From Ulota crispa (Eukaryota; Streptophyta; Bryopsida; Orthotrichales; Orthotrichaceae), in assembly GCA_963920765.1 (NCBI GenBank), contig OY987248.1, forward strand, positions 18,262,539 to 18,326,538: DNA of 64,000 nt, read 5' to 3'. The notes beneath the pieces are model-generated. The model was not told the DNA's origin, did no database searches, and saw only the letters and a list, made by a program, of their open reading frames with translations. How positions within the stretch are numbered: position 1 is the stretch's first letter; each line of letters opens with the position of its first letter. A program made the position numbers and the translations under genes. This document shows positions 3,638-17,564 of this stretch, one piece after another.

Positions 3638-4790
3638 GGACTAGAGAACTTTCAGGAAGGTTATGGCCAAGTCGTACTCTTCACAAGTTCAGGGAGCTCA
3701 CATTAAATACAACGTTATGGATAAATAACTAAGGGGCTGTCCACATTATGTTCCATGTGTCCCAACGTCACCGGTTCCATTTCAGCGTTCACAACTTTCT
3801 AAAAAAATTTGGATTGTAAATGTCAAAAGATGCACTTATTTTTTTTATAAATTAATTGTAAAAAAGAACATGGGGATTTGGCTCTTGAGTTGGGTTCTTA
3901 TTTTTAGTTATATTCAATTCTTGAATCATTTTTTGCAAATTTTTAGTGTAGAAAAATGTGCAAAAATGCTGTCAAGAAAGCAATTCTAAGTGAATTGAGA
4001 TGTGATTAGTGGGACGTAATGTGTGAAGCTATATGTACTAGTGTTTTACCTCTCAAGAGAAGTTGGTGGGATTTGGAACTTGAGACATGATGTGAAGTTG
4101 TAAACCACCTCTAAATTGATTCTTCTAAATCAAAGACAGCTCCATACATTTGCAATTTTGCATTCATTGGAGAATTTGACATTATGCCACCTTTATTAGT
4201 ATTTTGTTTTAAATTAGACAGGTCCTCATTGGCTGGTGGCATTGCGATAATTCTTAAATCATGATTACTCTATTAAACAAAATGCATAGCAATGGTAACA
4301 CAAGCTAGGCAACTATGCTTAATAGCTATGTTTTTGGTCCCAACCGCCTATGCTTAATAGCTATGTTTTTGGTCCCAATTTATTTTATATTCATAGAGTA
4401 ACCAAATTATAATTAATTCAAGTTGGTAAGTTTTGCAAGAGAAGTTCTATTTAATTAGAACATGTGTGATTTGGAACATGTGCACTAAAATTCATGAAAT
4501 TTTTAACAAAGTATTTAGTAGGTGAAATAACATCAACATCTCATAATGACCTTTGAGTGCTCTATAGTCTACACTCTAAATGATGAGCAAAACAATTTGA
4601 GGTCATCTTTCATCCAAAGTAACAAATCTTTGTACATCCAACCTAATACATGATTTTGTAAAAAATAACCTTCCTTTTATTCCCGTGTTGACTAGTCAAA
4701 ATTTCACCAACTTAAGCAAAAACATTAACAAAAACATCCAAAAGGAACAATTCCAAAATGAGATGTGGATATTAAAAGGATTAACCCCTG
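3638..4790. other. AT-rich intergenic DNA with a short tandem duplication
   Basis: No gene recognised. At about 4314-4378 a 33-34 bp unit containing TAATAGCTATGTTTTTGG is repeated twice in tandem. Confidence 0.5.
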
Positions 4791-5015
4791 AGCCCCCTAG
4801 TGACGGGATCCTGTCATTGGGGAACACGACTTAATCTCACTTTTTTTCTTGATTTGTACATTGAAAATAGTCGTGGCTAGTCCCCATTAGTAGAGAAGGT
4901 AGTCCTTTTTCAAATTTTACGATCACTTTTTCTGAATGTAATTTTCCAAGTCCTGATGGCCATTAAACCCCATTTTCTCCTAAACCCTAAAACAACTCCA
5001 AGCGCTCGGGGTTAA
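4791..5015. mobile_element. TTAA element with CCCCTGAGC-type end (225 bp)
   Basis: It begins TTAACCCCTGAGCCCC and ends GCGCTCGGGGTTAA. The ends resemble those of the 782-bp element at 33260-34041, but the interior differs. Too short to encode a protein. Confidence 0.6.
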
Positions 5016-9243: not shown

Positions 9244-12200
9244 CTACTTTTCAACGGCACGGCGTTGCCACTCAATGCCAACATCAGTCACTTCGTCTTG
9301 CATGTTCAGTAGAAGCAAGTGTCCCTTTTTCAAGCGTGTGACTGGAATTGCGTTGCCGTTCATTCCATCTGCAACAAAACAGCGCAAAGCCTTTGTCATT
9401 ACAGCTCTGTACTCCAACCAGCCTTTTCACAACTTCAACCTATAATTTTGTACATATAATTTTGTACAGTTTTCTGTTTCAGGTTTGGAAATGTCAAATT
9501 TTTTTGTGCTCCGATGAAAGTGAGACATGTATGAATCATGCAATAACAACAGGCAGAGGCTCGTCCTTTCTAAGGATGCGTTTACGATTTGTGTAACAAC
9601 TTGTAGACTGTTCATGTAACTATGGAATTTGTATGTCCCTAAACATCTGAAGATCTCCCCATATTTTGCATATATTCTTTATAGTTTGCAGGTGTCTCCT
9701 GATGTGAATAAGTCTTACACTGAATGTGTCTTACACTATTTTACAAGCAAAATTTACTTGTTTTTTTGCTGCTTTAGGCTATGGAGCTTACTTACTAGCC
9801 TAAAATAGCGGTTGGCGCTTATTACGCTATGCATTCATCATTAGAACTTTATTAGGATTTTCATATGTTAAATAAAATGCAAAGTAAAAATTTCAGCAAG
9901 TCTTCAAATTGTATCTACTTGATAATATCACTGAGATTGAAGATGTGATATTACACGAGTCAAAATGTGATATTACAAAGGTGCTTGTGATTTTAATAGT
10001 ATGGTAGGAGTTGTTACTAGTGTTGTTAGTTGTTTTTAGTATCTCTCGATGTATGCAAACCATAGTAGTTTCTAGAATGTTCCATACGAAATTTGGGTAG
10101 TTCATAAGTAGTTAAATGTGAGCTGTAAATGTGTAAATTAGAAGTTCAGTAAAAAAAGAGCATATCCACTACAAGTATCGTGCACTACCAAATGTTGGGA
10201 ACGAGGTCATTATACATTCTATGGTGTGCACTTTTTGAAGGAAACAAGGAGCACGAAAGGAAGCGAAAGTGGGAGCGTGGGGTACCGCCGGCAGGAGAGA
10301 CTAGGCAGACGGAGTCGCAGTTCTGGAGGAGCACGCTGTGTCGGAGGCCCTGGACCTGCACTTCCACGAGCAGCAGCGGCCGCGACTCGATTTTGACGCG
10401 GCCGACGAGCACGGAGCGCATGCGGCCTTGCGCGTCCACCACCATCACTTGACTGCCGGTGTGCAGCTCCGACAGGTACGACGTCACTCCCCCCGCCATC
10501 CCCACGTACGCATGCACTGGTCCCTGCAATCAATCGTTGCAACCACCACAACATCATCAAAATCGTCACAGAGACAACCACCAAAATTCCACGTCCGTTT
10601 TGTTGAAAGAAGAATGCGAGCATTTGCATCTGAAACGTCATCTCCCAAGAGTCCTATCCCATCCAGACGACGCTATTTTGTGAGCATAAAATGGTGAGCA
10701 AAGAGTTTGGGAGCAGGAACCAATTTTGAGCTCAAAATCAAAACCAATGGAAAAATAACCCAAGAGTCCCATCCGGGCAAACACTATTTTATGAGCGTAA
10801 ATCAATGAGCTATGAGTGGTGAGCCAAGATTTTGTGAGCAAGAATCAATTTTGAGCTCAAAATTAATGGAAAAAAGAAAGAAAAAAGAAGCAAGTTTTTC
10901 AAGAGCTACAAGTTTAAACTGCACAATTATAATGTCAAATGTACACGGTTATAGGTGAAATTAAGTATTTTGACAAAAAAAATCGAGGCTCACGACTCAT
11001 AGAACCTTGCTCACTGTAGCATTCCCGAGTTCCATCTTATTCATGTAGAACTGGCAACAGCTGATTCAACAGTTGAGATTATGTCGAGTAATGAAAGAGT
11101 GAAATCTAAGGAAACAACATCCCTTCATATGTCAAACTTTCACGTTACCTAATCCATGAATTTTCAAACCATAGTTGGAGCGCAAAGTTGATCAACTTAG
11201 TTCTATGCCAATTTGTTGAAGAAGAAAGCTAGAATTAGAATCACGTTAAAACGTGACTTGAGTCCCCATATGTGTACAGAGGGGCAACCAATCATTAGAT
11301 ATGCACAGCATGGTTATGTTTCATGATTTTGTGTATTACTGGCGTTGGGGTTTCTTTCTTTTCAGAGAGCATTTTTTAACAAGATTCAACCATTTGAGGT
11401 TATGTCTTGCACAAAGTACCAATTTTGATATGAAATAACATCCTTGGAATTGTGGTATGTTGGTGTACTATTACTTCAAACTTTCACATTACTTGCTTCG
11501 TAAATTAGTACCCCTGAGTAGAAAGCTTCGAAGGTTGTGAGTGACGTACAGCATTGATACGAAAAGGCCGAGAACTGGTTTGATCAATGGCTGACCACTC
11601 TGAGTGCACCAAGAAGAGAGCTCTCGCAAATGAACCCACCTGAAAAAATCAAACACATAAAAATCACGGTTTGCAAGAAAAAAATACAATTTCCATATCC
11701 AAATTGATCCTTCTTTTTCTTTTCTCTTTTATATGCAGTGATGCTTGGATAAGGTCAACACTTTGGGCTAGAAAAAACATGTTAATCATATCCAAAATTG
11801 ATCATAAACATGCACTCCATTTGCACTACTTCCCCTAGATTTGGTGGTTGCAACTCTGGAGGTGCTCTTCCACCCATATTTCTCATTCACTAACCAGATG
11901 CCTTTCTAGTTGATGAGTCAAAACAAAAAGCGAGCGTTGATCGTACGCAAGCACTTGACTTTAACTAGGCTCATGATACACATATTGGGCAAAAGGGGAG
12001 TGGGACTATGATCCTATCCAATTGTTTCTTTTACAAAGGTTGACGTTAACCAAGCACCACTGTATAATGTTATGGATTGTCTTGTGTTAAGATGAGAGAA
12101 ACTTGTAAAATAACAAGTTGAGAACATGTTCATGAGAACGGAAAGCTTACCAGGAGACCTTCTCCAGGGTGCAAAAGATTGCAGAGATCCACACACACGC

Positions 12201-15200
12201 GGTCGCCAAGTCCTACTGGCTCCACTAGCGTCACCGTGGCCGTCACCAACCTCACGCCCAAGCTGGCCTCTCGTCTTCCTCTCAAACACGCCTTGAGAGC
12301 GTAGATCTGCGACGGGTCCTCCGTTTGGAGGACAATGCCATCAGTGCCCTTGCCAAGCGCCTCCACATAAAGCTGCGCTTCACGCGCGCTCTTCGCCACC
12401 GCAAACACTGACGAACTGCAACCCTGAAACGCCGTCACGATCCTCTCGGCAGCCGTCACCTGCACCACCACCCCTACCAAAATCAGACCAAATCTTCTCC
12501 AAAACAAACATATACTAAAAAAAGGAAAATTTCATGGGTAACCCTGAAGTTTGCAATATTTACATAGATACCCCTGCTTTTTCAGAAATTACACATATAG
12601 CCTTGGACTATAATTTTAGGCATTTATTCGTTGTGCTTCATGACCAATGTTGAAGAAGGGAATGAAAGGAAACAATAAAGAAGCAGTTTGTGCACAAAGG
12701 AAGAAGGGAAGTGGCATGCACAACAAAACAAACGCCTGAAAATTTTGGTGGTCCAAGAGTATTTGTGTAATTTCTGAAAACCCAGGGATATCTATGTAAA
12801 TATTGCAAACTTCAGGGTTACCTCTGAAATTTTCCCTACAAAAAACACACCGTTGCAGCTTTGGCTTGTTTCGTTCATTGTCTGATTCTTACAACCTTGG
12901 TTTGAGCAGCTCTGTGTAAACGACGACCTAGCAATCAGCATATGTAACCTTGTGCATAAATTTCATCTCCAGCTTGCAAAAATATTGGTTTACTGGGTCT
13001 CAAGCACAAGGGAGGCTAATTCCAGTACCTGTGAGTCAAGACCATTCACGATGACTACTTCGACGCGGCCCATGAGATTGTCCAGAGGCTCGCCAGAAGA
13101 GCAATTGCAAAGCGCTGCCACGTGCCGGTTCTGAGCGTTCACGAACTGGTCGCCCTCGAGGAACACGGGTCTAATGCTTGCAACCACTGCCACACAACGA
13201 AATTTTGGCATCAAAATGACGTACTGAGCTTGCACCTCACAAAAGGAAGCAAGTTAGAGCAGTAAAACAGAAGGATGGCGACACATCAAAAAGGGTTCCA
13301 GGGGCGTACTGGTCCAGTCGTCAGCCAAGTCTTTGGTGTCAGGAGTGAAGATGAAGGTAGCCCAGCCGGTTTCAAGCGCCGAAATCATGACGTCCTTACT
13401 ACTGGTCCACACCCACACGGATTTCAAAGCTTTCTCCCGAACGCCAATCCTGCCACTGGCCACTCGGTCAGCCGAGACGGCAGAGATGGACCTGGAGAAG
13501 AAGGCGTTCGTCCTGTTGGGCAAGAGATCGCGGGACACAGGCAAGCTGCCGCTGTGGTGCAAGCTCAAGGTCAGGTCGTGGTCGTGGTCATGGTCGTCAG
13601 GGCGTGCCGCTTTGGGCCACGATTCCTGCTGATGATGCGCGACGGGTCGCTTGCGGGAGACCTCGAACGCGGGCTCGGACGCGGGCGGTGGTGCCATGTC
13701 CGGGGTGAGGGAGAAGAGCTCGTCGCAGGAGGAGCGCCCGCGCGAGGTTCCAGATGAGGAGGAGGCCATGGAGTCCTGCTTCCATAGCTGGTGCGGCAGA
13801 AACTCGTGCGTCTCTTGGGTGTAGGTGGTGGAGGAGAGGGACGACCCCCCTCGGAGGGAGGAGTTGAAGGAGGATTGGTTGGACAGAATGGCGTGCGCGG
13901 TGGCGTATTGCATTGGAGTGAAGCTCGTGGATCGGAAACTGGACACGGCCGAGGGCACCACGGGCATCACTGCTGGCTTGCTGATGGCGAACGAGCGCAC
14001 CATGTCCACTCCTCCCGAGTTTCGCACTCGCGTCACAAAGCACGTTAGGTTGTCGATGAAGTACTTCCTGTCTTTCTTCATATTCCTGTAGAGAACTCCG
14101 CAACATCCACAGACTCAAAGATCTGGAAACATGCTTTTTTTTATTTGCAAACCTTAGAGCATCCGCATCCTTGCACGCAAGCTGGAGCTCTAAAAAGGAG
14201 GTGTCCAGGGTGCATCCACAATCACAACAATCACAGGCTTGCTCAAGTCTCCAATGCCCCACCCTTGCACTCGACCAAGTACAAGCAAGCAACTGTGTAT
14301 TACAGAGGATAGGAATGTCAAGCTTCAATTGTGGGCCTCTTGTGTCGTCAACCAATCAACAAGTTTCCATTGTCCTAGATTTGGGTGCCCTAACAATTCA
14401 TCAAAGCATTTTAGTGTTCAAGCTACAATTGAGCATGCAACTTGGAGCTCTCAAAAGCAAGTGTCCAAGGTGCATCCACAATCACAAGCTTGCTCAAATC
14501 TCCAATGCCCCACCCTTGCACTCAACCAAGTACAAGGAAGCACTAAACGTGCATCCCATAAGAGGACAATGTTGAGCTTCAATTATGGGTCTCTTATGTC
14601 AACCAACCAATCAACAAGTCTCCATTGTCCTAAATTTGGGCGCGCTTACATTCATCAAACCCTTAACCCTGAATGTTTCAGTGTTCAAACTACAATTGAG
14701 CAAGCCCTTGCTAGCATAAAATAGTTGCACTAAGGCGCGCCAAGCAGAGCAGGCCCGCCACATGCTATTGAGGGCCTGATTAGCATACCAGGGCGCGGAT
14801 GCTCTTAAGAGCGCCGTGTTTTAACCCGTCCGCGGAAAGAGTTGCACCATTTACCTGTCTAAGATGACGTGATAGGCACCATGTTTCTTCGCCTCTTCCA
14901 CGGCGATCATCTTCGGGTGAAGGCCCGGTTTCACCTCCACTGTCAACGTCACTCCGGCCTTCTCACAACACCGGGCCAGATCCTCGATGCTGGCCAGCAT
15001 GTGCTGCTTCGTGATGAGCTCGTTTTCTAAGATTTTGCGGTTAGCTCCCAGCCAAGAATTCTCATCCAAACGGCACTTATACCCCACTGCACCGACAACA
15101 ACCATTCCGAAACTGTCACCCACCATACCCCCCAACAGTCCCGAAAATCACAAACCCCCTATCACGAAACCTCAGCCATCCAAGGCTTGCGAGAGAGGTC

Positions 15201-15609
15201 GACGACAACAAACACCAAGTACACCGACAAAAGAACCACCACCATGGCCTAGTTTGAATTCCGATTGCACGCACTCTCCAAGTACCAAATTCACTAGTTT
15301 CTAGAAATCTCTCTTGATTACAGCAACCTGGTGAAAGGGTAGAGTGGCTGCTGCAAGTGCACCTACGAGGCGGGGAAGTTTTTTTTTGAACTTACTAGGA
15401 TTGAGCACGTGCGAGAGAACGCCCACGAGACGAAGCGCATCGCCTTTGCGCGCTACATGGCCGAGCGCCCAATTCAAAGCATGCGTGCAGATATCCTTGT
15501 TCACATCCAACACGACCAGCACCACGCCCTGCACCGCCATCGCTTCGGGATGCAATCGTAGTCCCGTGCTGTCGACATCCTCCATCCACACATCCGACGA
15601 CCCGGCCAT
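9244..15609 (-). CDS. USP domain fused to class II 3-dehydroquinate synthase
   Basis: Eight exons, in order of transcription: 15396-15609, 14855-15086, 13310-14085, 13029-13186, 12151-12459, 11550-11639, 10286-10523 and 9244-9368. They join into 713 codons plus TAG; all junctions are GT-AG and keep frame. The ATG at 15609 has an in-frame TGA upstream. Residues about 25-182 form a universal stress protein fold of the plant type (VVLVVLDVNKDICTHALNWA, then HVLNPMGYKCRLDENSW, then HVILDRNMKKDRKYFID). Residues 177-368 are a low-complexity linker. Residues about 369-713 match plant 3-dehydroquinate synthase homologues (Arabidopsis At3g28760 type) and archaeal AroB': SVWVWTSSKDVM, GDRVCVDLCNLLHPGEGLL, VGSFARALFLVHSE, SRPFRINAGPVHAYV, LQNCDSVCLVSPAG, and the end IEWQRRAVEK. 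Archaeal members make dehydroquinate for the shikimate pathway by oxidative deamination; the plant role is unsettled. Exon 3 holds the end of the USP domain and the start of the synthase in one frame. The normally conserved stretch after HSE (usually like CLESNYIA) reads WSAIDQTS here. Confidence 0.9.
10668..11024. mobile_element. GCTATTTTGTGAGC-ended element in an intron, copy 2
   Basis: Lies in intron 6 (10524-11549) of the USP-DHQS gene. The left end GACGCTATTTTGTGAGCATA is followed by a partial repeat of the same end (AACACTATTTTATGAGCG near 10779), so the left arm is duplicated. The right end is TGCTCACTGTAGCATTCCC. Relatives lie at 2567-2806 and 32166-32410. Confidence 0.6.
12523..12834. 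mobile_element. 310-bp foldback element in intron 4 of USP-DHQS
   Basis: Left arm: GGAAAATTTCATGGGTAACC, then TGAAGTTTGCAATATTTACA. The right arm is the inverted copy, ending TTTCAGAGG-type sequence read in reverse. Each arm is about 75 bp. The middle is unique. Lies wholly inside intron 12460-13028. Confidence 0.7.
14155..14802. mobile_element. Harbinger-like element with internal tandem duplication
   Basis: The ends are GAGCATCCGC and GCGGATGCTC, each flanked by TTA, giving the 3-bp TTA target duplication typical of PIF/Harbinger. The interior holds two direct copies of a unit of about 259 bp (from about 14182 and 14441), each with GTGCATCCACAATCACAA, CCAATGCCCCACCCTTGCAC and CAACAAGT(T/C)TCCATTGTCC. 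It occupies most of intron 2 (14086-14854) of the USP-DHQS gene. Confidence 0.7.
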
Positions 15610-16840: not shown

Positions 16841-17564
16841 TTAACCCCTAAAGGACCAAGCCTCCTTTCCGGGGATAAATGGGATTTCAGGCACGTACCT
16901 ATTGTTAAACTATTTTGTGTGATTTTTTGAAATTTTTATGAAAAATGAGGAATTCAAAGATATGTGTGGGCATCTAATTTTTTCTTTATTCCGACATTTA
17001 TCGAAGAAGTTAAAAATAAATTTATGAAAATTTTAGTTCAGCGGGCAGCCCAAAAACTTTTTTAAAAATTGCATTTTTTAAAAATAAAATTTTGAGGTTA
17101 GTTCTTTAGACTTACATATATGTGGGAAGTTTTGAATCATTCAATTCTAATTGATGAGATGGAAGTTATGAGAAGTTTTAGTTTGCGCGTAGGCATTGTT
17201 TTGAGATTCTCCACACCTACCCGCAAACTAAAACTTTTCATGACTTCCATCTCATTAATTAGAATTGAATGATTCAAAGCTTCCCACATATACATAAGTC
17301 TAAAGAACTATCCTCAAAATTTTATTATTAAAAAATGCAATTTTTAAAGAAGTTTTTGGGATGCCCACCGAACTAAAATTTTCATAAATTCATTTTTAAA
17401 TTCTTCAACAAATATCGGAATGAGGTAAAAATTAGATGCCCACACATTTTTGAATTCCCCATCTTCCATAAAAATTTCAAAAAATTACACAAAATAATTT
17501 AACCATAAGTACATGCCCAAAATCCCGAAAGTCCCCGAGGGGACTTTGGTCCTTTACGGGTTAA
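16841..17564. mobile_element. TTAA foldback element, family E copy 1 (724 bp)
   Basis: Begins TTAACCCCTAAAGGACCA and ends GGTCCTTTACGGGTTAA. It is almost entirely one inverted repeat with arms of about 340 bp, meeting near 17203 (GTTTGCGCGTAGG / CCTACCCGCAAAC). The copy at 20350-21065 has the same design. Confidence 0.85.

Follow-up and report, generated by a model that had tools for sequence, protein, structure and literature searches.

Within a 64-kb window of the Ulota crispa genome (the whole stretch of DNA analysed; contig C7, 18262539-18326538), we found what is very probably a single fused gene, hereafter gene A, predicted to encode a three-part protein in which a divergent USP-like domain of the USP-kinase kind is followed first by a Ser-rich linker and then by an entire class II DHQ synthase domain. 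Across its family, the single frame recurred, intron places corresponded and conserved synthase residues had been lost. With moderate confidence in the explanation as a whole, we interpret the product as a signalling protein of the USP type that has co-opted a synthase domain, its gene having originated through the joining of two genes at an intron. A USP-kinase gene would have been joined at an intron to a duplicated copy of the gene for the plastid class II synthase, the USP exons taking the place of the first synthase exon; the plastid address would have been lost, and the protein would probably reside outside the plastid. The linker, with its recurring [DE][DE]LFS[IL] motif, is perhaps phosphorylated, judging by its composition, and the protein would have a signalling or scaffold role, its synthase domain serving to bind a ligand or partner or to convert a different substrate. 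The synthase domain of gene A would then be no enzyme of the shikimate pathway, its original activity having been lost. More tentatively, we propose that the kinase of a USP-kinase was replaced by a metabolic enzyme through intron recombination, and that this enzyme came to serve, outside the plastid, as a module for ligand sensing or output.

The splice model, drawn from the genome sequence, placed gene A on the minus strand at 15609-9244, with eight exons, seven introns that were all GT-AG (7/7), and a predicted coding length of 2142 nt, or 713 codons plus a stop, in a single frame; this reproduced the codon count, end points and in-frame junctions proposed in an earlier sequence-only reading. 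Exon 1 (15396..15609, minus strand, as are all features of the gene) carries the start codon and the N-terminal USP-like part (residues 1-71) and ends at a gtaagt donor, and exon 2 (14855..15086) encodes the middle of the USP-like domain in 232 nt, equal to the 134- and 98-nt exons of the related genes C7b and C8 put together. Exon 3 (13310..14085) runs from the end of the USP-like domain through the Ser-rich linker (13425..13991, residues 181-369), which contains the motif DELFSL (13707..13724, residues 270-275), into the start of the class II DHQ synthase in one uninterrupted frame, and its coordinates were exactly those first read from the sequence. The longest open stretch in the window, 286 codons from stop to stop, holds this exon, inside which a second start may lie. 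The rest of the synthase is encoded by exon 4 (13029..13186, N-terminal half), exon 5 (12151..12459, 309 nt, equal to the 168- and 141-nt exons of C2 and C7b, and including Gly496), exon 6 (11550..11639, C-terminal half), exon 7 (10286..10523, with the GPVHAY...GRVKIE core) and exon 8 (9244..9368, with Thr700-Asp701, the C-terminus and the stop). No tRNA, Rfam match or tandem repeat scoring at least 150 was found within the window.

A search of the 275-Mb genome with PF01959 gave 16 matches; scoring covered the 13 top-ranking candidates, which makes the locus count a lower bound. The domain was present at no fewer than five loci, namely gene A, C7b, C8, C6 and C2. At all five loci found except C2 a USP-like part lay upstream of the synthase, and at three of these four (A, C8 and C6) the two parts share one open frame. 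The gene models of C7b, C8, C6 and C2 were spliced via hand-picked anchors. C7b (C7:18540086-18545574, 734 residues) passes from the USP-like part to the synthase in frame across a GT-AG junction intron, C8 (C8:19031962-19036823, 869 residues) does so inside one 974-nt exon, and C6 (C6:3221692-3223647, 651 residues) is intronless and crosses in one open frame. Because USP-like and DHQS-II sequence occur together at three further loci of the genome, the join in gene A goes beyond chance, and the same recurrence led us to set aside a mistaken gene model or read-through by chance. The fifth locus, C2 (C2:18827667-18831725, 397 residues), is a stand-alone synthase with a transit-peptide-like start, and no USP match was found upstream of it by tblastn to E 1 in two stretches (L023 and L026) reaching about 13 kb upstream. 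With no acidic residue among its first 51, compared with seven in gene A, C2 looks like the plant synthase with a transit peptide alone in front to which gene A had been contrasted.

The USP-like domain of gene A spans residues 27-180. Its PF00582 (Usp) match scored 15.7 bits, under the Pfam curated cut-off of 24, and in the Pfam search Usp was not listed at E ≤ 1 for the other three fused proteins (C7b, C8 and C6); the label "USP" therefore stands on weaker evidence than the DHQS assignment. A profile of ten relatives could nevertheless be aligned to a canonical USP encoded in this genome (hhalign 73.6%, E 2.9e-5, 133 columns), whereas the control alignment of the USP-like profile with part of C2 gave 0.6%. 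The best PDB sequence match of the family profile, weak at E 0.029, was 2gm3, which we take to be a plant USP. Nucleotide-binding USP domains carry the motif G-x2-G-x9-G(S/T). This motif was not present in gene A, where the stretch reads LDRNMKKDRKYFIDNLTC, and none of the ten aligned relatives of the domain had such glycines at this place. Nucleotide control through the USP domain was set aside, since the motif is absent.

In the synthase part, PF01959 (DHQS) matched residues 370-713 of gene A along the whole profile (positions 1-344 of 344) at 318.6 bits, compared with a cut-off of 22.2, and the domain was 60% identical to C2. Prokaryotic homologues were collected by a DNA pattern because a search of genome contigs with the synthase alignment gave no relative. 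The pattern occurred in at least 119 stretches; among the 80 listed, 79 ORFs matched, and the 72 ORFs of at least 300 codons were aligned, the seven shorter ones being left out. Conservation in at least 97% of these 72 rows defined 38 near-invariant columns, of which C2 kept 38, C7b 36, gene A 32, C8 29 and C6 11; the nine lost in C8 comprised six changes and three gaps. The changed positions in gene A were 462, 463, 469, 496, 700 and 701. Position 496 is Gly in gene A and Glu in 70 of the 72 prokaryotic rows, the Glu being kept in C8, while positions 700-701 read Thr-Asp in place of the Arg-His found in C2 and in 71 of the 72 rows. Eight of the 38 columns fall inside the stretch encoded by the picking pattern; gene A keeps all eight, so that its count beyond that stretch is 24 of 30. 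When each prokaryotic row was left out in turn at the 95% level, 50 of the 72 had no misses and the maximum was six; at this level (42 columns), gene A had seven misses, C7b three and C2 one.

These counts bear on an alternative in which the fusion works as a class II DHQ synthase, or as an enzyme for a related substrate, whose activity or stability is switched under stress by the USP-like domain. PF01959 is complete in gene A and C7b, which keep most of the near-invariant columns, and gene A retains the GRVKIE-RP core and the RPFRxNAG block. Pairwise dN/dS between A and C7b was low, at 0.17 for the USP-like part and 0.19 and 0.09 for the two synthase halves, with dS near saturation. Given the columns kept and this low dN/dS, the synthase domain of gene A may be catalytic. 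We nevertheless judge the active-enzyme alternative unlikely, as gene A has lost Glu 496 and the Arg-His pair, C8 has lost more and C6 is without the N-terminal half, the USP nucleotide motif is absent, the start of gene A is not transit-peptide-like, and a class I synthase is present in the genome while the ADH synthase was not found.

The last two points came from an exon-by-exon search of the genome. It gave two matches to PF01761 exons of a class I DHQ synthase, and for the archaeal partner enzyme, ADH synthase (TIGR01949), no match at E ≤ 0.001, in a search that a split gene may escape. In the control, TIGR01949 gave matches in six of 14 genomes, above its cut-off in three, and the same exon-by-exon search did detect the split genes of PF01959 and PF01761. 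One review describes the ordinary DHQS gene of plants as single-copy in every species compared, soybean excepted (PMC3608921). Because the class I enzyme is present, the ADH synthase was not found and the ordinary plant gene is single-copy, the fused domain is an unlikely main source of dehydroquinate; a role in providing it for aromatic amino acids was set aside in view of the class I enzyme and the failure to find the archaeal partner. The suggestion that the fusion places aromatic precursor synthesis under direct stress or nucleotide control is not supported, given the replaced nucleotide motif, the Usp score below cut-off, the class I enzyme, the failure to find ADH synthase at E ≤ 0.001, and the near-invariant residues lost from the fused proteins (two in C7b, six in A and nine in C8, out of 38).

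Returning to a co-opted synthase domain born by intron joining, we compared exon structures. The junction intron of C7b lies at the same place and in the same phase (phase 1) as intron 1 of C2, and the sequence after the intron reads ILVRPS in C7b and VLVRPS in C2. Exon lengths were 267, 167, 168, 141, 90, 235 and 125 nt in C7b and 225, 167, 168, 141, 90, 235 and 125 nt in C2, the last six being equal. The 50 residues after the junction intron of C7b include no acidic residue, and this stretch would correspond to a former part of the transit peptide; in gene A, the last part of the linker aligned with the transit-peptide-like stretch of C2. Gene A has lost introns, as seen from the 168- and 141-nt exons joined as 309 nt and the 134- and 98-nt USP exons joined as 232 nt. 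C7b and C8 keep all three intron places of the USP-like domain and gene A has lost one. All three places were found, as in C7b and C8, in two USP-kinase genes (L032 and L035), which share the intron place at the end of exon 1 of gene A; a third USP-kinase gene (L029) matched at the second and third places, the first donor being unconfirmed, and L027 also matched. From the shared junction intron and exon lengths of C7b and C2, and from the USP introns common to the USP-kinase genes, it appears that an intron was probably the site at which a USP-kinase gene was joined to a copy of the gene for the plastid synthase, the first exon of the latter being lost.

The trees of the synthase domain do not settle whether there was one fusion event or several, being compatible with either. 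The fused trio formed a clade with support of only 48/7.6, and a grouping of C2 with C7b was not rejected (p-AU 0.277). In the USP tree, L027 and L028 grouped with C8 (98/97), C6, L030 and L033 formed another group (100/100), and gene A was not placed with confidence. If the kinases mark the root, this tree suggests repeated loss of the synthase part.

A genome search with a query extending from the USP-like part into the synthase start gave 31 matches in all: 15 loci including gene A matched in the USP-like part, and C2 in the synthase start only. Beyond the four fusions, we examined 11 USP-like loci with no PF01959 match. With the kinase fragment of L029 itself as query, a kinase was detected within the stretch examined at three of the 11 (L029, L032 and L035), and the three fragments scored above Pfam kinase cut-offs. 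No synthase match at E 1 was obtained in 10 of the 11. The remaining locus, L033 (C10:10738001-10746000), has a frame-broken remnant of the C-terminal synthase half at 4468-4806 (tblastn E 1.2e-7), upstream of which lies an intact 345-codon USP-linker frame. Neither kinase nor synthase was found in the USP-like genes L027 and L028 (on C1 and C4); in both, an open frame further downstream contains WPLMHWADC, ends in LNY-DM-DSD and may represent a further partner domain. Elsewhere, L036 (C6:17150001-17159000) carries at 2466-2860 USP-like exons near those of the kinase gene L035 with in-frame stops, and is possibly a pseudogene.

One genome holds a series from a near-complete set of conserved residues in the full fusion C7b, through the losses in the full fusions A and C8 and the half synthase of C6, to the remnant in L033 and relatives with no synthase detected. 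In C6, the synthase match covers profile positions 157-328 only, that is, the C-terminal half. An archaeal homologue modelled with AlphaFold (mean pLDDT 94.3, pTM 0.76) shows helices and strands mixed in its N-terminal half and strands alone in its C-terminal half. The top PDB fold matches of this model were mostly TIM-barrel enzymes, with TM-scores of 0.3-0.4 of the query, and NAD kinase accounted for two of the first six with a TM-score of 0.14. C6 would therefore, by alignment, be without the barrel-like half. Sequence searches of the PDB gave no match up to E 10 for the C2 synthase and no convincing relative for an archaeal homologue, which had six matches up to E 1, the best being a designed protein at E 0.0042. 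In C8, one exon (L021 4857-5285) is 288 nt longer than in C2 and C7b and adds about 96 Ser/Gln-rich residues within the synthase.

Such a series could also arise in a decaying family, in which the fusion belongs to the past, the synthase half is being lost without a role of its own and the USP-linker part is the working unit. The half synthase of C6, the broken remnant of L033, the 10 further USP-like loci with no synthase match and the grouping of L027 and L028 with C8 fit this account, as do the long synthase branches of A and C8: end branches were 0.071 for C2, 0.20 for C7b, 0.44 for A and 0.61 for C8 in one tree, and 0.12, 0.16, 0.40 and 0.35, respectively, in the other. However, the frame is open across the whole spliced synthase in A, C7b and C8, and the dN/dS values of the A and C7b synthase halves, although read at saturated dS, are low, so that we consider decay without function improbable.

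The Ser-rich linker of gene A is open for 189 codons. The pattern [DE][DES]LF[STC][ILM], composed after inspecting the sequences, was present in five of six linkers tested, C8 being the exception, and matched in 0-4 of 2000 shuffles per linker. The A and C7b linkers alone were only weakly alike (blastp E 8.2). In-frame ATG codons between the domains in exon 3 would suit two adjoining transcription units, a USP-linker gene that terminates within or beyond exon 3 and a synthase starting inside that exon, which chance or a past fusion would have left readable as a single frame, but this is very improbable given the open linker, its motif in four of the five other members tested, the single open frames of C8 and C6, and the in-frame passage of C7b over its GT-AG intron.

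Among the known systems close to gene A are the plant USP-kinases, which consist of a USP domain, a linker and a kinase of the receptor-like cytoplasmic type. The USP-like domain of gene A was 49%, 46% and 47% identical to those of L029, L032 and L035, respectively, and intron places inside the domain are common to both kinds of gene. Unlike these proteins, gene A has no kinase (none at E ≤ 1) and carries a class II DHQ synthase after the linker instead. Like the class II synthases (PF01959, the archaeal MJ1249 type, represented here by C2), gene A has the complete domain, and its exon lengths correspond to those of C2 after one intron loss and small indels; it differs in having a USP-like domain and linker in front rather than a transit-peptide-like start, and in six of 38 near-invariant columns, Glu 496 and Arg-His 700-701 among them.

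To our knowledge, few outputs of USP-headed plant signalling proteins are known. In the available text of a review, multi-domain plant USP proteins combine USP with a kinase, with a kinase and a U-box, or with a cation exchanger (PMC6560075); gene A similarly joins USP to another domain, and no synthase partner appears in that text. Among the titles and opening parts of abstracts listed from the open-licence literature, there was no report of a USP-synthase fusion. A literature search with At3g28760 and class II synthase terms returned no paper naming At3g28760, and what class II DHQ synthases do in plants consequently looks open. The fusion family offers a way into the function of the synthase fold in plants. 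With its two kinds of parent gene remaining in the genome and the junction intron kept in C7b, it also provides an instance of plant exon shuffling that can be put to the test.

Several repeat structures lie in or near these genes, outside the protein-coding parts. Intron 2 of gene A contains a tandem duplication of about 260 nt (14173-14705), its pieces 73-94% alike, and intron 4 an inverted-repeat element (12524-12835) with 85-nt arms that are 91% complementary. By eye, these arms resemble a 30-nt unit repeated 26.6 times in a C2 intron (L023 3886-4687). About 1.3 kb upstream of gene A, at 16890-17517 of the window, an inverted repeat with 232-nt arms (91% complementary) and a 22-nt gap is flanked by 77-nt arms (87%), and by its look is a foldback- or MITE-type element.
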